The translations under genes were made by a program, and so were the position numbers. The notes beneath the pieces were generated by a model. The model was given only the letters and a program-made list of their open reading frames with translations, did not search any database and was not told the DNA's origin. Below, one piece after another: positions 1-21,695 of a stretch of 34,188 nt of DNA. The stretch is from positions 119,580 through 153,767 of the forward strand of contig MFYT01000009.1 in the NCBI GenBank assembly GCA_001789205.1, written 5' to 3'. Within the stretch, counting starts at the first letter, position 1. Every line of letters starts with the position of its first letter. Source of the stretch: Candidatus Raymondbacteria bacterium RIFOXYA2_FULL_49_16. GTDB lineage: Bacteria > Fibrobacterota > OXYB2-FULL-49-7 > XYB2-FULL-49-35.

Positions 1-1541
1 GGTTATTAATATGCCTTTTCGTGTTGATCTTTCCTTTAATGAATGCAGCACAGCAGAACCCGAACACCCTTCTTTTTCCAGACAATATTCAGTATGAAGG
101 TTCTTTCCGGCTTGATGGCGGCCTGCGGGTAGACGAACACGGCTACTTCAATTATGGCGGCTACGCCTTCGCGTATTATCCCGCTGGTGATTCCACTGGG
201 CCGGATGACGGTTATCCGGGATCACTGTTCGGCACCGGGCATGCATCAGGGTCGTATATTGCCGAAATCAGTATTCCCGCACCGGTTATTTCACTGGCAG
301 AAAACCTTGCCGATCTTCCCCTGGCCTCCCCTTTGCAGAACTTTGCCAATCCATATTTAGGCATTCCGGGCTGCCCGGCAAAAACCACGCAGGGCGGCCT
401 TCTCTACCTTCCGGCCCAGGGGCAGCAGGCTTCGGGCAAACTGTACGGAAATCTGTGCAACGATTATGTGGGCACATTTCCCAATGATATTCACATGGCC
501 TGGTTTGAGACCAATCTTTCAAATCCCGCGATAGCAGGATTATGGCGTCTTGGGGACTATTCCCGCTGGGACAATTCACGATATCTGTTTGAAATTCCCG
601 CATCATGGGCAGATACAAATACGCCGGGAAAAATATTGGCCTGCGGACGGTGCAGGAACTGGGGCGGAGAAGGGCCGAATCTTTTTGCATGCGCTCCATG
701 GGAAAAGGGCAATCCCCCACTGTATGGAGACACCATTCCGGGTGAGCCGCTCATGCATTTTATGGATGGGACAATAAAAAAACAGGACAAGGGATTTACT
801 CCGTGCAACGACTGGCAGGCGGGTGCGTGGGCGACCCGGGGAAGCAGATCCGCCGTCATTTTCCTGTCGTCAGTCAGTTACAGCCTTGACCATATGTATA
901 TGAGCGGCCCGTATGGACCGGGCAGATATGCCTGCCTTCTTTTTTATGATCCCGCAGACCTTTCTGACGTGGTCAAAGGGAAGAAAAACCAATGGGAACC
1001 GCATTGGTATGCCAGGAAAACAATTGATTCTCACTTTTTCGGCGCAAAGAGGCCGGGGAGCAACAGCGATCAAAGCATGGAGGACTGTTATTACAGTATA
1101 GGCGGCATGGCCTATGACCGCGAGCGGGGCAAACTGTATGTTGCGCAGACGCTTGAATCCTCGACCCGGGACCCGCTTATACATGTGTTCCGGATAGACA
1201 CGGCAACAACGTCCGCGGAAAAACATGCATCCCGGAATGTTCCAGACATGCAACTGGCCATATCCCCGAACCCGTTTAATCCCAAGACCGTTATCACGGT
1301 CAAGGTGACCCGCTTCGCCGAAGCGAGGCGAGAGGAAAAAGGTGAACGGTGCAAGGCAGAAATGATAATTTATACCATTGAAGGAAAAATGGTGCTAACA
1401 ATATCGGACCTTCACCTTTTACCTTCTACCTCCACCTTTTCCGTCACCTGGGACGCTTCCAGCCAGCCAAGCGGCGTCTATATTATCAAGGCAACCATGG
1501 GAAGCAAGACGCTGTTGAAAAAGGCCGTGTTGATAAAATAA
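1..1541 (+). CDS. Secreted protein with C-terminal sorting domain, 5' end cut by window edge
   Basis: The reading frame is open to the window edge. Upstream of the GTG at 21 it reads LLICLF, and with the following VLIFPLMNA this forms the hydrophobic core of a signal peptide ending near ...NA/AQQ. The true start therefore lies outside the window. The mature part (about 400 residues) has the pattern 'IQYEGSFRL...SLFGTGH...AEISIPAPVIS...LPLASPLQ', shared with the paralogue at 7534-9156. I cannot name this domain; the Gly/Asp/Trp-rich, cysteine-containing sequence could be a beta-propeller or similar beta fold. The last ~95 residues are a sorting domain (SPNPFNP near the start, WDASSQPSGVYIIKA near the end), as used for T9SS-like export and surface attachment. 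Relative to the paralogue, this domain carries two low-complexity insertions that look repeat-derived. It leads a probable operon with the next two genes (gaps 22 and 8 bp). Confidence 0.85.
   Translation, partial: LLICLFVLIFPLMNAAQQNPNTLLFPDNIQYEGSFRLDGGLRVDEHGYFNYGGYAFAYYPAGDSTGPDDGYPGSLFGTGHASGSYIAEISIPAPVISLAENLADLPLASPLQNFANPYLGIPGCPAKTTQGGLLYLPAQGQQASGKLYGNLCNDYVGTFPNDIHMAWFETNLSNPAIAGLWRLGDYSRWDNSRYLFEIPASWADTNTPGKILACGRCRNWGGEGPNLFACAPWEKGNPPLYGDTIPGEPLMHFMDGTIKKQDKGFTPCNDWQAGAWATRGSRSAVIFLSSVSYSLDHMYMSGPYGPGRYACLLFYDPADLSDVVKGKKNQWEPHWYARKTIDSHFFGAKRPGSNSDQSMEDCYYSIGGMAYDRERGKLYVAQTLESSTRDPLIHVFRIDTATTSAEKHASRNVPDMQLAISPNPFNPKTVITVKVTRFAEARREEKGERCKAEMIIYTIEGKMVLTISDLHLLPSTSTFSVTWDASSQPSGVYIIKATMGSKTLLKKAVLIK
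1308..1335. repeat. GC-rich palindromic repeat inside a coding sequence
   Basis: CGCTTC-gcc-GAAGCG (1311-1325) followed by GAGGCGAG. The same wording (GACCCGCTTCG...GAA...GCGAGGCGAG) recurs at 25913-25944 and, inverted, near 26342-26374. Here the repeat is read in frame as RFAEARREE within the sorting domain of the surrounding gene. Confidence 0.6.
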
Positions 1542-1563
1542 ATACGATAAAAAAGAGGTCTCC

Positions 1564-2730
1564 ATGAAAAAAAACATATTCATTGCGTTGGCCGTATTGA
1601 CCGGATTTGCGACCGGGTATTCGCAGGCGCCTGACATTTCTTGGACAAAATTATTCAGCAAAGACACCCTTGGCGCCAAAACAGGCGACCAGGACGACAT
1701 TCGTTCGCACTATGTTGTGGAAACGCACGACCGTGGCTTTGCGCTGACCGGGCATTGCTGCTGCCGCCATTGCAACGGCGATATGTTTGTGATACGCACT
1801 GATTCGGCCGGTACAATAATCTGGACGCTGAGAAGTGACGACAGCAGCAGGAATGAAGTCGCAAATTGCATCCAGGAAACCGGGGACCACGGATTCATAA
1901 CAGCCGGATTCACCCAGGGTTCCAGCTTCAACATGTATTACGTGGTCCGTATTGATTCCATTGGAAACACGCTCTGGGCAAAAAAGTACGGCAGCAGCGG
2001 GTCCGGAGATTTTGCAAATGCCAATTCTATAAAACAGACGCCTGATGGCGGTTTTATTATAGCCGGCTATACGTTTCCGCGCGCCAGCAGCCACAGCCTT
2101 GTCTATATCATCCGCATAGACGCCAATGGCGATACGATGTGGTCAAGAACTTTTGGAGGGACCAAAAATGACTGGGCGCGGGACATCCTGGTAACCGCAG
2201 ACAGCGGATATGTTGTCTGCGGCGCCACCGAGTCGTTTGGCGCAGGAGGCTCGGATGTTTACCTGCTTCGCCTGGACAAGAACGGTAATCTCGCCTGGAG
2301 CAAAACATTTGGCACAGAGGCGAATGATGGAGGATATTCCATATGCCAATCATTGGACGGGGGCTTTGTGGTGACCGGGTACACCAATGATTATCAGGAC
2401 GTGTATCTGGTCAAAACCGATACAAACGGAAACGCGGTGTGGACAAAAACGATCGGTTCTCCCGGCACCTCAGAGCATGGCAGATCTGTGAAAGCATTGT
2501 CCGAAGGCGGATACATCATTGGCGGCCTGACCGGAGCGGACTCGACCTGCGGGTATCTGGTGCGCACTGACGAGCAGGGAAATGTGATGTGGACCAAAAC
2601 CATTGCCGGGGATTCGCCAGACTATCCCCTGTATTGCGTCCAGGCAACTGCTGACGGAGGAATCATCGCAACCGGCCGCGATGATATAGGTGAATTTCAT
2701 ACGCAATTGATCAAACTGAACGGCAGGTAA
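1564..2730 (+). CDS. Secreted repeat protein of delta-60/propeller-like type
   Basis: An N-terminal signal peptide (MKKNIFIALAVLTGFATGYSQ) is followed by about seven repeats of roughly 50 residues. Their consensus is 'D-GGFIIAGYT...YLIRIDxNGDxxWSKTFGGxxND-ARSI-QT', with the GGF/GGY, R(I/L)D and W(S/T)KT elements recurring regularly. Such repeats are common in secreted proteins of Bacteroidota and Fibrobacterota and probably form a beta-propeller. The protein ends with the last repeat and has no sorting domain of its own, so it may be periplasmic, freely secreted, or held by a partner. A Cys/His-rich patch (HCCCRHCNGD, residues about 62-71) interrupts the first repeat. The start is supported by GAGGTCT just upstream. 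It sits between the sorting-domain protein and the rhamnosidase in a tight same-strand run. No catalytic residues are recognisable. Confidence 0.8.
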   Translation: MKKNIFIALAVLTGFATGYSQAPDISWTKLFSKDTLGAKTGDQDDIRSHYVVETHDRGFALTGHCCCRHCNGDMFVIRTDSAGTIIWTLRSDDSSRNEVANCIQETGDHGFITAGFTQGSSFNMYYVVRIDSIGNTLWAKKYGSSGSGDFANANSIKQTPDGGFIIAGYTFPRASSHSLVYIIRIDANGDTMWSRTFGGTKNDWARDILVTADSGYVVCGATESFGAGGSDVYLLRLDKNGNLAWSKTFGTEANDGGYSICQSLDGGFVVTGYTNDYQDVYLVKTDTNGNAVWTKTIGSPGTSEHGRSVKALSEGGYIIGGLTGADSTCGYLVRTDEQGNVMWTKTIAGDSPDYPLYCVQATADGGIIATGRDDIGEFHTQLIKLNGR

Positions 2731-6436: not shown

Positions 6437-7522
6437 ATGGATCATGTAGCGGGAGAAATAATTATGCCGTTTGATGATGGATGGGCCGCAATCAATCTGG
6501 AGATGCCCAAGCGCGTGCCGCGCACCGAGTATTCAGCCGAAGGCCATTGGGACTTGATCAAAGCGGTGACCGGCATTGATGTGGGAGCTACCTCGCCTGA
6601 AAAAATGCAGCGCCAGGCAAGCGCCACCTTTATGCACGCCTGGAACTACGATTTTTTCTGGGACATATTAATTGGCAATAATGAATTCGGCGCGACCAGG
6701 ACCAGCATGGGTCACGCAGAATATGCGGCTGGAGGCGTGGATCGCAACGATACGCTTTTTTGCCCGTTCACTGACCCTGAGCATGTGCTGTGTTTTGACC
6801 CAGGGGAAGCATACGGACATACGGACAAGGCCGCGCTTGTCCAACGGTTCGAAACGCATTATCGGACAAATTGCCAAAACCATGGTTTTGGGATCAATAT
6901 GACGGGCATTTATACCACGTTAATCTCAGGGTTCATCGAAATTTTCGGATGGGAGATGCTGCTTTTAGCAGCCGGTACTGATCCAAAGCGTTTTGGAGAT
7001 CTTGCCAACAGGTATGCAGCTTGGAACCAGCAATACTTTGACGCCTTGGCCCAGGCTGATGTGCCGGTGGTCATGGTGCACGATGATATTGTGTGGTCAT
7101 CAGGCGCTGTTTTCAGTCCGGATTGGTACCGTGAGTACGTGTTCCCAAACTATAAACGGTATTTTGCCCCGCTTTTAGACAGCGGGAAAAAAGTCATATT
7201 CTGCTCTGACGGCAATTTTAATGAATTTATTGACGACATCGCGGCCACCGGAGTGCATGGTTTTGTGTTCGAACCCCTCACCAGCCTGGAATATATTGTG
7301 AGAAAATACGGCCAGACCCACGTCATCATCGGCAATGCCGACACGCGAATTCTCCTCTCTGGTACGCGGGCCGAAATCCGCGCCGAGGTAGAACGGTGCA
7401 TGGCGCTTGGCCGCGGCTGCCCGGGATATTTTATGGCTGTTGGCAATCATATTCCGGCAAATACGCCAGTAGAGAGTGCGCTTTATTATAATCAGGTCTA
7501 CGAGAAATTGAGCGTACGATAA
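6437..7522 (+). CDS. Uroporphyrinogen decarboxylase superfamily protein (MtaA/CmuA-like methyltransferase)
   Basis: A 361-residue cytosolic protein with the URO-D superfamily layout in its C-terminal half. The elements are VMVHDDIVWSSGAVFSPDWYREYVFPNYKRYF, then GKKVIFCSDGN, then a segment equivalent to GxIGNxDTRxLLSGTRAEIRAEV, then GRGCPGYFMAVGNHIPANTP. Cys256 and Cys328 lie 72 residues apart, like the distal zinc ligands of MtaA-type cobalamin methyltransferases, though the usual His two residues before the first Cys is an Ile here. The N-terminus lacks the RxPVWxMRQAG signature of haem-pathway HemE, so a methyl-transfer role fits better than haem synthesis. An alternative start at 6464 has a better ribosome site (GGGAGA, 7-nt spacer) than the ATG at 6437. 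The stop overlaps the ATG at 7522 by one base. Confidence 0.75.
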   Translation: MDHVAGEIIMPFDDGWAAINLEMPKRVPRTEYSAEGHWDLIKAVTGIDVGATSPEKMQRQASATFMHAWNYDFFWDILIGNNEFGATRTSMGHAEYAAGGVDRNDTLFCPFTDPEHVLCFDPGEAYGHTDKAALVQRFETHYRTNCQNHGFGINMTGIYTTLISGFIEIFGWEMLLLAAGTDPKRFGDLANRYAAWNQQYFDALAQADVPVVMVHDDIVWSSGAVFSPDWYREYVFPNYKRYFAPLLDSGKKVIFCSDGNFNEFIDDIAATGVHGFVFEPLTSLEYIVRKYGQTHVIIGNADTRILLSGTRAEIRAEVERCMALGRGCPGYFMAVGNHIPANTPVESALYYNQVYEKLSVR

Positions 7523-7533
7523 TGGAGGTGGCC

Positions 7534-9156
7534 ATGCTTGTACGAACTTTGACCGCAGCAAGGCGTGTTGTCCTGTTTTTTATCCTGGCAATAATCAGTC
7601 AAAATGCGGCCCAATCCAGCCAGCCGCAGGTCCAGTTTGGCGACTTGCGCTATTGCGGGGCCTTTAAGCTCCCGGAGTATTGGGAGCCCGTGTGCGATGA
7701 CCAATGCACATTCCACTATGCGCACGGCGCCGTGGCATTCAACCCGCACCAGGGCGGAAACAACGCAAACCCGCCATCATTGTTCGTTGCATGCTTTACA
7801 GGACAAGGGGCTTCCAACGTGGGTGAGGTCAGCATACCGGAACCGGTGATCTCCAACACCGGTAACATCAATGATCTTCCAACAGCAACAAGCCTCCAAC
7901 GCTGCGCCAATGCAGAGGCAGGCGCGTCGGCCACCCTGAGTTTTGGGGAGGGAGGGATCAGCGGGATCCTGATCGCGGGCTCAAAAATGTACTTTACCTG
8001 CTACAACAGCTATCCGGCAGGCGGCTGTCAGTCCCTTAGCCACTTTGTGAAAAATTCATTGGATCTAAGCGCTGCCGATGCAACAGGTGCGTTTCTGGTC
8101 ACTAACAATGCAGGCGGAACCTGTTTTATTAACGGCCCAATGACCTGGATACCGCAGGAGTGGCAGGCTGCGCTGGGAAACATGCCTGCCATTACCTATA
8201 ATTGCTGCCACAGCATAATTGCCTCCACTTCATGGGGACCCGCCGCCTTTGCCTTTGATCCATCAGCGCTTGGCAACACCCCTGCCGCCAGTGTGGCGCT
8301 CCAGTACTACACCAGCAGCCACCCGGCATTGGGACAGTGGGACGGAGGGTCTGGCCCTCTGGTTTTTGAGACGGCATGGAACAACAGCTGGAACGATGCG
8401 CCAGTACCGGGATATCGCGGGCTGGTGATCCCGGACGGAACCAGGAGCGCCTTGTATTTTGGGGCGCAGGGAATCGGGGAATACTGCTATGGCGAGGGGA
8501 CCAGTGATTCAAGTCTCCACGGACAGCCATACGGAGGCACTATATACTGCTATGACCCGGCCGCAGTGGTCAGCAAAGGCGATCACGCGTATCCGTACCG
8601 CTTCCAAATCATGGCATTTGACCTGAACGACTGGGCCTCTGTTGCGGCTGGCGCAAAAGAACCGTATGAAGTAACACCATACGCGGTCTGGCCGCTTGCG
8701 CCGCCGGTAATCCCATTTACAAACGGTATCACTGACGCCGGGGGAGGCGGAGCAGCGTACGACCCAGCCACTAGGCGGATATACTGGGAACAGGCGCGCG
8801 CATATGGCAGCGGCCTCCCGATAATCCACGTATGGGAAGTAACGTCGGCGACCGCGGTCGCACCCTGGCATGCGCTGGAAAATCAGACTGACATAATTAC
8901 AGCGTATCCGAATCCGTGTAATCCCGGGGTAAAAATAACCGTACACTGGCAATGGACGGTGGATAGCAGAGATGCGATCATAGAAATATATAGTGTTCGT
9001 GGCGCATTGGTCCAAAAACTGCGCGCAGCTCGCAACACGGCCGACCAGCGGGCCGGAATTGCTTGGGACGCGTCCAGCCAGCCAAGCGGAATCTATGTAA
9101 TCAAAGCGGTCATCGGTAATACACGCGGGTCAAAAACCATCGTATTGACAAAATAA
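7534..9156 (+). CDS. Secreted protein with C-terminal sorting domain, paralogue of the first gene
   Basis: Starting at 7534, behind GGAGGT (7524-7529), gives a clean signal peptide: MLVRTLTAARRVVLFFILAI followed by ISQNAAQ. An ATG at 7522 overlaps the upstream stop and would add four residues. The mature protein shares with the gene at 1-1541 the blocks 'LRYCGAFKLP', 'GAVAFNPH', 'PPSLFVACFTGQ', 'GEVSIPEPVIS' and 'INDLPTATSLQ', plus a Cys-rich middle. I do not recognise the domain. The C-terminus (YPNPCNPGVKITV...WDASSQPSGIYVIKA...KTIVLTK) is a sorting domain, with Cys replacing the usual Phe of PNPFNP. The DNA of the WDASSQPSG segment is almost identical to that in the first gene, which suggests recent duplication or gene conversion. 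It ends 2 bp before the convergent mazG stop. Confidence 0.82.
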   Translation: MLVRTLTAARRVVLFFILAIISQNAAQSSQPQVQFGDLRYCGAFKLPEYWEPVCDDQCTFHYAHGAVAFNPHQGGNNANPPSLFVACFTGQGASNVGEVSIPEPVISNTGNINDLPTATSLQRCANAEAGASATLSFGEGGISGILIAGSKMYFTCYNSYPAGGCQSLSHFVKNSLDLSAADATGAFLVTNNAGGTCFINGPMTWIPQEWQAALGNMPAITYNCCHSIIASTSWGPAAFAFDPSALGNTPAASVALQYYTSSHPALGQWDGGSGPLVFETAWNNSWNDAPVPGYRGLVIPDGTRSALYFGAQGIGEYCYGEGTSDSSLHGQPYGGTIYCYDPAAVVSKGDHAYPYRFQIMAFDLNDWASVAAGAKEPYEVTPYAVWPLAPPVIPFTNGITDAGGGGAAYDPATRRIYWEQARAYGSGLPIIHVWEVTSATAVAPWHALENQTDIITAYPNPCNPGVKITVHWQWTVDSRDAIIEIYSVRGALVQKLRAARNTADQRAGIAWDASSQPSGIYVIKAVIGNTRGSKTIVLTK

Positions 9157-16907: not shown

Positions 16908-18023
16908 ATGTTCTTCAACCGGAACCCTATTGCCTGGGGCATACGATACTTCTGGCTCAACTGGCTCGGCGCAAGCGGAAGGCTGCGCATGCTCTCTGTG
17001 CTGTCAAACGCATCCGCCCTGCGCAGGGAGACCGCGTTCAACGACCATATCAAAGGCTTCAGGTCTGTCCTGCTCATTTTACCGCAAAAGCCCCACGAAC
17101 TGGTTCTTGCCCAGAAGAGCATCATCGCCCTCAAGGAACACCAGCCGGACATGCGCATCGACGTGGTGGCCGAAACACGCAGCAAAGACCTTATTACCAG
17201 CAATCCCTATATCGACGGCGGCTTCTTCTATACGGCCGGGACCTTTCTCTACAACCATCCCCTGTTCAAAGAACTCACCGGGTCCATCCAGGCAAAAGCA
17301 TACGACGCCTGCATTGTGCTCAACCGCGACGAGCATCCCCTCAACTATTATCTTGCGGCAGCGTCTAAAGCCCCTTTGCGCATGGGATTCAACAACCCCA
17401 GAGCTTTTCCATTTATCAACCTTGCGGTGCAACCCAAAGCGTGCCTGATATACGAAGGAGACTTGTACGAGTCCCTGCTCCGTACCATTGGCGTACGGTT
17501 TCCCCGTTCGCGCGTGCGGTGGAACATACCCAAGAGCACGGAAAAAGACATGGAGGGTATTCTGGTTGAAATGGGATACCGGACAGGTGGCCTGCTCATC
17601 GGTATCGACCTTTCTCCCTCTGTAACCCAAAAGTCTATGCCCGACTCCCTTGCCGAGGACCTTGTCCGGAGCCTCTCGTCCATTGCGGGCGCGGAAGTGG
17701 TCGTCATGAGGACAAAAATAAAAAAAGACGCACCCGGCGCCTCTTTTGCGGGAAAACGGATCGTGCTGCTCGAAGAGGAACGGATTGCCCATGCCGCGGC
17801 GCTCATCTATTCGTGTTCCCTGGTGGTGTCGCTCAACACAATGACCTACCAGCTCGCGGTGCTGCTCAACCGGCCGGTTATAGGCCTGTTTGAAAACGGT
17901 GAAAAGGAACAGTGGGCCTGCTTGCAGAAGGGCCGCTTCGAGTACATTGCGGGGAATAAACTGAAAGACACCACCGGCGCCGAGGTCCTGGAACGGGCAA
18001 AGGCGCTTATAACCCCCGGTTAG
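16908..18023 (+). CDS. Glycosyltransferase family 9 protein (heptosyltransferase-like)
   Basis: A 371-residue protein of GT-B type. The N-terminal domain has the spaced strands VLLILPQKPHELVLAQKSIIAL, MRIDVVAETRS and YDACIVLNRDEHP. The C-terminal domain has LLIGIDLSPSVTQKSMP and then ERIAHAAALIYSCSLVVSLNTMTYQLAVLLNRPVIGLFE, which is the GT9 donor-binding block (usually DTGxxHLAAALGxPVVALFG; here SLNTMTYQ replaces DTGxxH). GT9 enzymes add heptose or related sugars to the lipopolysaccharide core on the inner face of the inner membrane. The acceptor here is unknown. There is no clear ribosome site before the ATG, and an overlapping frame at 16726-17448 is a shadow. Confidence 0.82.
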   Translation: MFFNRNPIAWGIRYFWLNWLGASGRLRMLSVLSNASALRRETAFNDHIKGFRSVLLILPQKPHELVLAQKSIIALKEHQPDMRIDVVAETRSKDLITSNPYIDGGFFYTAGTFLYNHPLFKELTGSIQAKAYDACIVLNRDEHPLNYYLAAASKAPLRMGFNNPRAFPFINLAVQPKACLIYEGDLYESLLRTIGVRFPRSRVRWNIPKSTEKDMEGILVEMGYRTGGLLIGIDLSPSVTQKSMPDSLAEDLVRSLSSIAGAEVVVMRTKIKKDAPGASFAGKRIVLLEEERIAHAAALIYSCSLVVSLNTMTYQLAVLLNRPVIGLFENGEKEQWACLQKGRFEYIAGNKLKDTTGAEVLERAKALITPG

Positions 18024-18031
18024 GAGAGTTT

Positions 18032-20671
18032 ATACTTAGAAATAAAAATGCGATCTTAATAGGTACGCTGTTAGGCATTGCAAGCGTAATTTCAAGCGCT
18101 CCGGCATCAGGTTTTGAAGGAAAATTGCATGCAGCGGCCATGACGACTATTACCAAAGACCATGGATTTAATTTGAATGCCATACCTGATAATGCTGAAT
18201 CGCCATCTCCTGCCTTGGGAAAAACTTTTGCTGCGATGGGAACCGTTTCTGACTCCTGCTACTTTTACGATAGTGGAGATTATCATATTTCTGACGGTGG
18301 GTTTAGCGCTCGGTATTTTAATGAAAATGGATGTGCGCCTGCAGGCGCCGTTGTTACCAAGGTTGAATATCGCCTGAGAGTAGCCCCTTCTGGCGCTGCT
18401 TCTGACTTTTATTGCGGGGATTATAAAATCTACCTGTCTTCGTCCAGTTCAACAAGCGTTTTGGCGGATCACCTCGTATATGACCGCCAGGGTGCGCGTA
18501 CTGATAGCGGGTCCGACGACGACGCAGAGGATGATTCTGATATTTACCTGAATTGGAGATCGACTGATTATTTTAACGGTGAAAGCGCTAATCAATATTG
18601 GGGTTTTCGGGTCGAGGACGTATTTACTGGCGACACTGGTATGATTGACTACTTCAGCTTCCGGATATATTATACCATTCAATCCTTAAATGTTATTCCT
18701 GAAGTATCTTACATCCAGGTCAACAATACAGCTGTCGGCCCTGGCGGATCGATCACTGTTATGTTAAATAACCTTCAGGAATCTTTTGAAGTCAGGCTTC
18801 GATGCTCCAACACCGGCACCGAAATGAGCCCGGCTTCCTTTAATAACATTACTATGTCATTCCCCCAACTAAGCAATAGCCAGGATCACTCGCATATATC
18901 CATATCCTCAGGTTCAAGCGGCGATTTAACCATTAATAGTTTCTACGGCTGTTGTGAAATCAACGAAGGATGGCCTATTGGAGGAGGAGACCAATACGCT
19001 GACTATTGCATGATTGAAGCCGCGGATAACTCCGGTTGGGCCTCAGGCGAGAGCAATACCCTCATTGCTGATATTACTCCCAAACAGTGGGGGTCTTTTA
19101 AGATAAATTTCAGGATGGCTCTTGCCGATTCAAGTTGGGCTCGTTGTGTCTATGACCCTGTTCAAGGCTATCCGGCTAGTTCAAATTCTGACTGCCTGAA
19201 TTATGAATGTTACTCCATTATAATAAACGTTATTGAAAACCCCAACCCCCCTATGCCGGCAAAAGTTGAAATTAGGGAGGTGACTGTAAATTATTTCATG
19301 CCCTATAGTGTATGGCTGGGCCAATTGCCAGCATATATTAATATGGGGGATAATCTTGAGATAAAGGGACGCGTTCTTGACCAATTCGGGAACCCTTTTC
19401 CAAATACTATGTTCGGCGTGCATGATGCTTTTCAACAAGTTTGTGCCGCCAAGACCACTGATGCTTCTGGTAATTTCATCTACAATACCAGCGTCCCCTC
19501 CGGCGATATACACTGCTCTAGAAATATGTTATTCTTCGTTGCATATGGCCATGATTGCACATACCTGAATTTTGCGATAAATATCCCGAGTTCGATGAAT
19601 CTTATGACCAACGCCTATGCGCAATCGACCATTCCAAGGCTGAACGCCAATCTAGGGTTTCAAGTATCGGATATGACGTTTTTTGATCCCAGCGGGAACC
19701 CTATCTGGGTTAGCAACGATTATGTAACTTCACTATTTCACATACAATCTGCGAGTGATGTTAATGAGGATAATTACTTTTATATATTGCAGCAATACCA
19801 ACGCAGTCAAACCGACCCTTTCTACGGCAAACCCGAAATACTGGATAGAGCAAAGGAAATAGATTACCAGCTTCATAAAACCTTTTTCGATGACGTTATT
19901 GATAATACTATATCTCAAATAGGACCTGGCGGGTTTATAACTTATATTGGCGCAGGTGGTTTTTGCGCTTCGACCTTATTCGGCAATCCAACGGGACCTG
20001 CTGGTTGTGTCATTGTCATGGAAATGGCTGCTCAGGATGTCTTGAAAGGACTCGGTATAACCTTGCTGAAAGACGCTGGGGCGTCACAACAAACCATTGA
20101 TATGTTTAGCAATAGCATGACTCTGACCTTTGCGTTGGCTGGAAATCCAATAACCATTCCAGGTACAATCACTGATGTTGTGTACTTCGATTACCAAAAC
20201 TCAAAAAATTTGGACGTACTAGACGCTGGGTATGCTGGTTACCGCAACAACACCCGGCCTTTTGACGTGATTTCATACACCAGCGATGGAAATAACTATT
20301 CATTTGATTTTACTTATAACAACGAACGTTATTCAGCAAAAGCCAGGACCAGCGGAACAACACAAAATTTCAACACTGGAAATAAATTACCTGAAACTGT
20401 ATCTGTCGGACCCGCCTTTCCCAATCCCTTTAATCCAGACGTAATAATACCGTATTCACTGCCTCAGAAATCCCTTGTTACCATCAAGGTATGCAGCGCT
20501 ACTGGCCAAGTGGTTTCGGAACTGGTGAATGGCGAAAAAAACACCGGGTATCATTCTATTGCCTGGGATGGTAAAATGATTGGTAGACAAGAACTACCTT
20601 CCGGTCTTTATATCCTTCAGTTGAAGGCGTGTAATAAAGTGAAGATGATGAAATTGATTTATCAAAAATAA
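18032..20671 (+). CDS. Large secreted sorting-domain protein, apparent ATA start
   Basis: The first canonical start in this frame is TTG at 18125, but that would remove the export signal. The frame is open upstream and encodes LRNKNAILIGTLLGIASVIS followed by SAPASG, a textbook signal peptide. It has AGGAG (18022-18026) five bases before an ATA codon at 18032 and no ATG/GTG/TTG in between. With the ATA start the protein has 879 residues. The N-terminal ~180 residues form a beta domain with an acidic loop (SGSDDDAEDDSD). Then come two or three Ig-like segments, one Cys-containing with a VxDQFGNPFPNT pattern as in Big/carboxypeptidase-regulatory-like domains, and a helical stretch. The sorting domain runs FPNPFNPDVIIPYSL...IAWDGK...LPSGLYILQLKA. 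By eye the base composition is AT-richer than that of its neighbours. Function unknown. Confidence 0.75.
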   Translation: MLRNKNAILIGTLLGIASVISSAPASGFEGKLHAAAMTTITKDHGFNLNAIPDNAESPSPALGKTFAAMGTVSDSCYFYDSGDYHISDGGFSARYFNENGCAPAGAVVTKVEYRLRVAPSGAASDFYCGDYKIYLSSSSSTSVLADHLVYDRQGARTDSGSDDDAEDDSDIYLNWRSTDYFNGESANQYWGFRVEDVFTGDTGMIDYFSFRIYYTIQSLNVIPEVSYIQVNNTAVGPGGSITVMLNNLQESFEVRLRCSNTGTEMSPASFNNITMSFPQLSNSQDHSHISISSGSSGDLTINSFYGCCEINEGWPIGGGDQYADYCMIEAADNSGWASGESNTLIADITPKQWGSFKINFRMALADSSWARCVYDPVQGYPASSNSDCLNYECYSIIINVIENPNPPMPAKVEIREVTVNYFMPYSVWLGQLPAYINMGDNLEIKGRVLDQFGNPFPNTMFGVHDAFQQVCAAKTTDASGNFIYNTSVPSGDIHCSRNMLFFVAYGHDCTYLNFAINIPSSMNLMTNAYAQSTIPRLNANLGFQVSDMTFFDPSGNPIWVSNDYVTSLFHIQSASDVNEDNYFYILQQYQRSQTDPFYGKPEILDRAKEIDYQLHKTFFDDVIDNTISQIGPGGFITYIGAGGFCASTLFGNPTGPAGCVIVMEMAAQDVLKGLGITLLKDAGASQQTIDMFSNSMTLTFALAGNPITIPGTITDVVYFDYQNSKNLDVLDAGYAGYRNNTRPFDVISYTSDGNNYSFDFTYNNERYSAKARTSGTTQNFNTGNKLPETVSVGPAFPNPFNPDVIIPYSLPQKSLVTIKVCSATGQVVSELVNGEKNTGYHSIAWDGKMIGRQELPSGLYILQLKACNKVKMMKLIYQK

Positions 20672-21207: not shown

Positions 21208-21222
21208 GTTCCCTGCGCTTTC

Positions 21223-21271
21223 GGTGCCTGGCACCATTTTGGTACCAGGGATGTTTTTGGTGCCAGGTACC
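21223..21271. repeat. REP-like GGTGCC/GGTACC palindromes
   Basis: GGTGCC-T-GGCACC (21223-21235), GGTACCAGGG (21241-21250) and GGTGCC-A-GGTACC (21259-21271) are packed into 49 bp between yraN and a transposase fragment. A further CCCAGGTACCC lies on the other side of that fragment (21700-21710). This is the expected layout of a REP element associated with a RAYT transposase. Confidence 0.7.
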
Positions 21272-21275
21272 TCTT

Positions 21276-21695
21276 TCAAGCAGCCTTTAGTAATTTTAAG
21301 GCTCGTATCTTTTTCCTTTCAGTCTGCGTCAGAATAGCAAATGTTTCCATGGTCACCGGATTACCTAATGCAAACGCGACACGTGAAAGGTCTTGGGCAT
21401 TATGAATCCCGAGATGCCTGTATAGTTCTTCTTTTGCAAGCCATTTATATTCCATTGATTGCCCGGACAAATATCTATAGCTCGTTATGGTTTCGTCTCT
21501 CTCCTCGTCTATCCTGTTGATAAACCCCCCGGCCACTGGATTATTATGTATATATCGTACCACGTTTTGAAAATAATCCGGGTCTTCAATGATTTGACTC
21601 TGAAATCTATTCCTGAATAATGGCCCGACCCTTTTATATTTTGCATTGAAAAACAGCACAAAATGATACCCGAGAAACCACATCCTCCTAAAAAC
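21276..21695 (-). pseudogene. Truncated REP-associated (Y1/RAYT-type) transposase
   Basis: The frame encodes the C-terminal ~135 residues of a Y1 (HUH-superfamily) transposase of the REP-associated group: FNAKYKRVGPLFRNRFQSQII, then YFQNVVRYIHNNPVAGGFI, the conserved RYIxxNPxxAG block, and a helical C-terminal tail. The N-terminal ~100 residues with the HUH metal-binding motif and MPNHxHLL are missing. The segment upstream is replaced by a GGTACC palindrome and a solo IS end. It cannot be catalytically active alone. The palindromes on both sides mark it as the remains of a RAYT unit. Confidence 0.75.

Follow-up and report, generated by a model that had tools for sequence, protein, structure and literature searches.

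A gene at 18032..20671 (plus strand) of the window, the 34,188-nt stretch of DNA analyzed here, probably encodes a T9SS-type secreted or surface protein that is translated, at reduced efficiency, from an AUA codon at 18032; we infer that this codon is used in vivo. Irrespective of the present state of this codon, 18032 is very likely the position of the start. AUA starts are already known elsewhere, and ATA at the head of a gene for a secreted protein is a probable isolated case. The window corresponds to C9:119580-153767 of a 5.43-Mb draft genome in 112 contigs.

Start region of the gene

The features of the gene and its surroundings are as follows.

16908..18023, plus strand: upstream ORF resembling heptosyltransferases/GT9 at scores under the family cut-offs; its TAG stop codon shares bases with the Shine–Dalgarno (SD) sequence of the ATA gene
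18022..18026, plus strand: SD core AGGAG, overlapping the upstream TAG, 5 nt before ATA; duplex -7.3
18032..18034, plus strand: proposed start codon ATA; no other near-cognate codon ahead of the hydrophobic core has a strong SD at a suitable distance
18032..18109, plus strand: segment predicted to encode a signal peptide (n-region with a charge of +2, h-region, A-P-A); its end is approximate, being set by the putative cleavage site
18032..20671, plus strand: T9SS cargo-type gene, 879 codons and TAA; protein body without detectable relatives
18048..18059, plus strand: out-of-frame ATG that meets a TAA after two further codons, without SD (+0.2 kcal/mol)
18125..18127, plus strand: TTG, the first canonical in-frame start, with AAGGA just 3 nt before; a signal peptide would be absent
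20417..20662, plus strand: C-terminal sorting domain of T9SS type A, spanning residues 796-877 when the protein is read as 879 residues

The raw window was reread around the start. The upstream ORF is closed by TAG 18021-18023, leaving 8 nt between this stop and ATA 18032, and the AGGAG core lies five bases before the ATA, as an earlier note on this DNA had stated. The nearest in-frame stop upstream of ATA 18032 is TAA 17957. None of the 55 in-frame codons between this TAA and TTG 18125 is ATG, GTG, or TTG, in agreement with the claim of the same note that no such codon separates ATA from TTG. Among the near-cognate codons in frame, ATA 18032 comes first and is followed by ATC 18053, ATA 18059, CTG 18068, ATT 18077, and ATT 18089. 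The frame ends at TAA 20669 and comprises 879 codons from ATA or 848 from TTG 18125. Duplex energies for the SD are -7.3 kcal/mol at ATA 18032 and -4.8 kcal/mol at TTG 18125, and no SD was found at ATG 18048 or ATC 18053. The GC content drops from 0.57 (17800-17999) to 0.415 (18000-18199), which is consistent with a gene start near 18024 rather than 18125. The predicted fold leaves the ATA and the 16 nt after it unpaired and pairs the SD with the last part of the upstream ORF; the stability of this fold is no greater than that of shuffles (z 0.50). Promoter and terminator scans gave results near the shuffle level.

Signal-like N-terminus

Translation from ATA 18032 starts ILRNKNAILIGTLLGIASVISSAPASGFEGK. 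This segment is composed of an n-region with a charge of +2, a hydrophobic core without charge, and A-P-A ahead of a small residue, the pattern of the signal-peptide cleavage rule. An N-terminal Sec signal peptide is predicted to be present if ATA 18032 is the start and absent if it is TTG 18125. The chance level was estimated by counting segments with an uncharged core at least equally hydrophobic and at least one net positive charge ahead of it. The segment at ATA 18032 is better than chance. When 20,000 open Markov sequences matched in composition were examined, 204 held a segment no less signal-like, as did 134 of the 17,416 open 31-codon windows that the sampled genome provides in all frames. 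In the paralogs described below, such segments occurred at 4 of 15,240 internal positions versus 92 of 130 N-termini. The signal peptide that had been noticed upstream of TTG 18125 is thereby upheld, as a signal-like segment that is rare by chance.

Starts of the sorting-domain paralogs

The C-terminal region matches TIGR04183 at 30.8 bits (cut-off 23), bearing out the earlier reading of a sorting domain at the other end of the protein, and the same protein matches PF18962 at 26.2 bits, just under the cut-off of 27. The gene resembles T9SS type A cargo (TIGR04183) in combining a C-terminal sorting domain with a predicted N-terminal Sec-type signal. The protein matches 140 places in the genome. 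Since nearly all of these matches are to the sorting domain, the T9SS machinery is likely to be present in this genome; the gene itself excepted, no match starts before residue 697. A set of 140 matches is very large for T9SS-type cargo, and the closest genomes compared share the phylum alone.

For the paralog sample, every frame ending in a sorting domain was taken from the window and 40 further stretches, 781.6 kb in all. This gave 151 frames, 134 complete and 17 cut on the 5' side. A signal-like N-terminus is present in 131 of the 134 complete frames; of the other three, one is adjacent to a stretch of undetermined bases, and two follow closely on an in-frame TAG within repeats. The protein is of a kind that needs export, as had been supposed. 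A canonical start is available for the signal in 130 of the 131 (111 ATG, 13 GTG, and 6 TTG), and the lone exception is the ATA gene; as the start rule favors nearby canonical codons, 1 of 131 is the number of genes without a canonical choice, not a full census of noncanonical starts. In the first pass, a canonical start with an SD at least as strong as -4 kcal/mol was identified in 118 of the 131. The remaining 13 were judged by eye; 12 of them have an ATG or a GTG at the signal peptide or close to it, the exception again being the ATA gene. At one locus (L012), the ATG lay beyond the first-pass scan range and was located in a separate scan. Because 130 other genes have a canonical start there, the sorting-domain family can be said to carry a signal and normally to start just before it. 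The ATA gene differs in this respect from the other T9SS type A cargo genes in the sample (130 of 130 canonical).

The SD spacing at ATA 18032 is normal for the genome. The 43 AGGAG cores that precede paralog starts have a spacing of 5 nt in 7 cases and of 3-9 nt in 41, and none lies 12 nt or more from the start. None of 48 AAGGA cores upstream of paralog starts has a spacing of 4 nt or less. The SD is weaker than -7.3 kcal/mol in 38 of the 130 paralogs and is fused to a stop-like triplet, in any frame, in 9 of 130. A position-specific profile of the paralog N-termini gave a different picture and counts against the register of ATA 18032. The ATA register scores 0.1, with just 6% of the 130 paralogs below it, and the profile prefers 18041, three codons downstream (11.5). 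This profile is weak and bound to the register, the ATA score being reached by 1,597 of 20,000 open shuffles and at 52 of 794 5'-extension positions.

Two sorting-domain genes in the sample are split by an in-frame TAG: L048 at 14767 (minus-strand count, G000:C90:1-20000) and L020 at 3944 (minus-strand count, G000:C4:70000-89543). In both, the TAG sits in the middle of a repeat array with repeats on both sides, and decay, error, or read-through may account for it.

ATA elsewhere in the genome and search for orthologs

We looked for signs that ATA serves generally as a start codon in this genome and found none. Among codons upstream of the first canonical start, SD placement was seen for 4 of 113 ATA codons versus 73 of 3,536 for all codons; this lack of enrichment counts against the ATA start. 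The comparison covered 460 greedy genes, of which 319 lack a canonical start with a strong-core SD; the strict SD core rule accepts just 141 of the 460, and the enrichment test is accordingly blunt. In the other three SD-placed ATA cases, a canonical codon follows 3, 4, and 12 codons on. Inside genes, ATA is a codon of ordinary use, at 18 per thousand codons in the sorting-domain frames and at 23 of 879 in the ATA gene. ATA 18032 is thus an isolated case and not a new start rule.

In the ortholog search, the genome itself alone matched (1 of 60 genomes and 1 of 167 genomes of the phylum), and a search of a wider collection of genome contigs gave 11 pattern matches, none of which was confirmed; conservation of the ATA was accordingly seen in no ortholog, which also counts against its use. 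The region is single copy, with no second copy in the genome.

AUN starts at infC and in other bacteria

The start of infC is autoregulated by its product, IF3. In the infC gene of the same genome (L052, about 1384-2013, minus strand), the first in-frame ATG falls inside the conserved start of IF3, and an ATT lies upstream in frame, 7 nt after AGGAGG. ATT is the apparent start of this infC, and the ribosomes of the same genome can therefore be expected to use an AUN start; at infC, they very probably do so. In 78 of 80 infC loci, the start with the best SD placement was one of ATA, ATT, and ATC (among seven codons, ATA 55, ATT 12, ATC 11, GTG 1, and TTG 1). These loci were drawn from at least 536, with at least five codons upstream of the match required, and many are from Rhodobacteraceae and nonindependent. 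Judging from these sequences, AUN starts, including AUA, are ordinary for infC. The statement that ATA initiation is very rare accordingly holds for ordinary genes and fails for infC. When the suggestion to look for noncanonical starts in related genes was followed, no further paralog without a canonical choice turned up (130 of 130 canonical); outside this family, infC has its apparent ATT.

In Staphylococcus aureus, AUA starts are described for infC, ccpN, and citZ (PMC13009471). In reporters, the noncanonical starts of ccpN, citZ, and cvfC1 gave ~10% of the AUG level in poor medium, and ccpN reached up to 30% in rich medium (PMC13009471). Natural ATG-to-ATA variants of Listeria rsbW are still expressed, in the order ATG > ATA > ATT, and rare or flexible starts are found in <0.3% of core ORFs (PMC13068326). 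Raised IF3 inhibits noncanonical starts and lowers reinitiation (PMC2268962). All 64 codons were covered by Hecht et al. (2017), as cited in PMC12350097 and PMC8299109.

The ATA gene resembles S. aureus ccpN, citZ, and infC in having an AUA behind a strong SD and an expected lower initiation. The S. aureus cases rest on ribosome profiling and reporters, and ccpN is conserved to Bacillus subtilis (PMC13009471), whereas the ATA gene, its start predicted from sequence, is a single gene without orthologs that encodes a secreted-type protein. Listeria rsbW likewise begins where the gene before it ends, and its ATA, weak but working, derives from ATG, as may be the case here; rsbW overlaps rsbV (PMC13068326), in contrast to the 8-nt gap at the ATA gene. 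The AUU, AUA, and AUC starts of infC likewise stand behind a strong SD, but initiation at infC is linked to IF3, which the gene itself encodes (autoregulation, PMC13009471), a loop that the ATA gene does not have.

Proposed initiation at AUA and alternatives

In the mechanism that we propose, the initiator tRNA would read AUA with a third-base mismatch, assisted by the well-spaced AGGAG and the unpaired, A-rich start region. Ribosomes translating the upstream ORF would open the SD pairing, and those that have just terminated at TAG 18021-18023, 8 nt upstream, may also assist. Gene overlaps are typical of translational coupling, and a distance of about 20 nt nearly abolishes it (PMC10666635). 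Given the 8-nt gap, coupling to the upstream gene is possible but marginal. The output would be below the AUG level and would fall at high IF3; the efficiency of the AUA start is probably IF3-sensitive, and ATA 18032 is plausibly a low-output start. The ATA may well derive from an earlier ATG and still work. The earlier note had opposed use of the ATA to mutation or error, an opposition that does not hold, since a change of ATG to ATA leaves a weaker working start (PMC13009471 and PMC13068326). An altered start still works at a reduced rate, and thus an origin from ATG and present use of AUA can both be true. A more specific proposal is that AUA is a fixed, selected throttle, the output of which is tuned by the IF3 level and by translation of the upstream sugar-transferase-like gene opening the SD hairpin. 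We consider this quite unlikely; if it is true, initiation fidelity would control a gene other than infC in an uncultured lineage of the T9SS type.

A single base change would also be enough for loss of the start, in which case a recent mutation of the start codon would have left the gene effectively off or decaying, with a leaky product alone. A large paralog family could bear such a loss, and the TAG-split genes L048 and L020 indicate that some T9SS-type members decay or carry errors. The rest of the 879 codons is intact, however, and AUA reporters retain a clear fraction of the AUG output (PMC13009471 and PMC13068326); start loss is unlikely on balance. A base-call or assembly error at 18032-18034 has to be weighed in a draft genome of 112 contigs, where the single-copy region offers no second copy for comparison. 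A consensus slip that falls on a start codon and yields exactly a known weak start would be improbable a priori, and we regard this explanation as improbable.

The preference of the paralog profile for a start near 18041, together with the A-rich run at 18040-18048, would be in line with an original start a few codons downstream in this run that was broken by a one-base loss, either real or artefactual, the ATA behind AGGAG then being coincidental. The AGGAG would in that case be 14-15 nt off, beyond the range of all 43 paralog cores, and neither ATG 18048 nor ATC 18053 has an SD, which makes this reading very improbable. TTG 18125 is a canonical codon with a weak SD-like AAGGA, and it is the start reported by tools limited to ATG, GTG, and TTG. 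The protein would then be made without a signal peptide, although signals occur in 131 of 134 sorting-domain proteins and the other three are split or gapped. The AAGGA is only 3 nt away, a spacing seen for none of the 48 paralog cores, and the upstream signal-like segment would be left without explanation. We consider TTG 18125 the least probable start reading.

Under the favored reading, reduced but real use of AUA 18032, gene callers restricted to ATG, GTG, and TTG would trim the signal peptide off, and a surface protein would be mis-sorted in annotation. The signal peptide provides an external gauge of where the true N-terminus lies. In uncultured bacteria, a sorting-domain family that exceeds a hundred members per genome would therefore permit a census of noncanonical starts; the count here is 1 of 131.

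Protein body and neighboring genes

In the family search, nothing in the protein body scored above the cut-off besides the C-terminal domains; a weak carboxypeptidase-regulatory-like match had an E value of 0.045. A PHROGs search with the protein body gave nothing, and a PDB sequence search gave just FlgD (E 0.0023 and 0.0029) and weaker matches. The single-sequence AlphaFold model has a mean pLDDT of 34, too low for a fold search. The upstream ORF scores 19.7 bits against PF01075 (cut-off 22) and 30.7 bits against TIGR02195 (cut-off 134.6).

A second sorting-domain gene of the T9SS type lies in the window at 7492-9156 (plus strand), with an ordinary ATG and a strong SD. Short palindromic repeats of the GGTACC / GTGCCAGGCACC type occupy 21210-21690 of the window and adjoin an ORF at 21276-21683 (minus strand), which we take to resemble a fragment of a REP-associated tyrosine transposase. 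The start of a nearby YraN ORF runs into palindromic repeats of the same GGTACC / GTGCCAGGCACC type.
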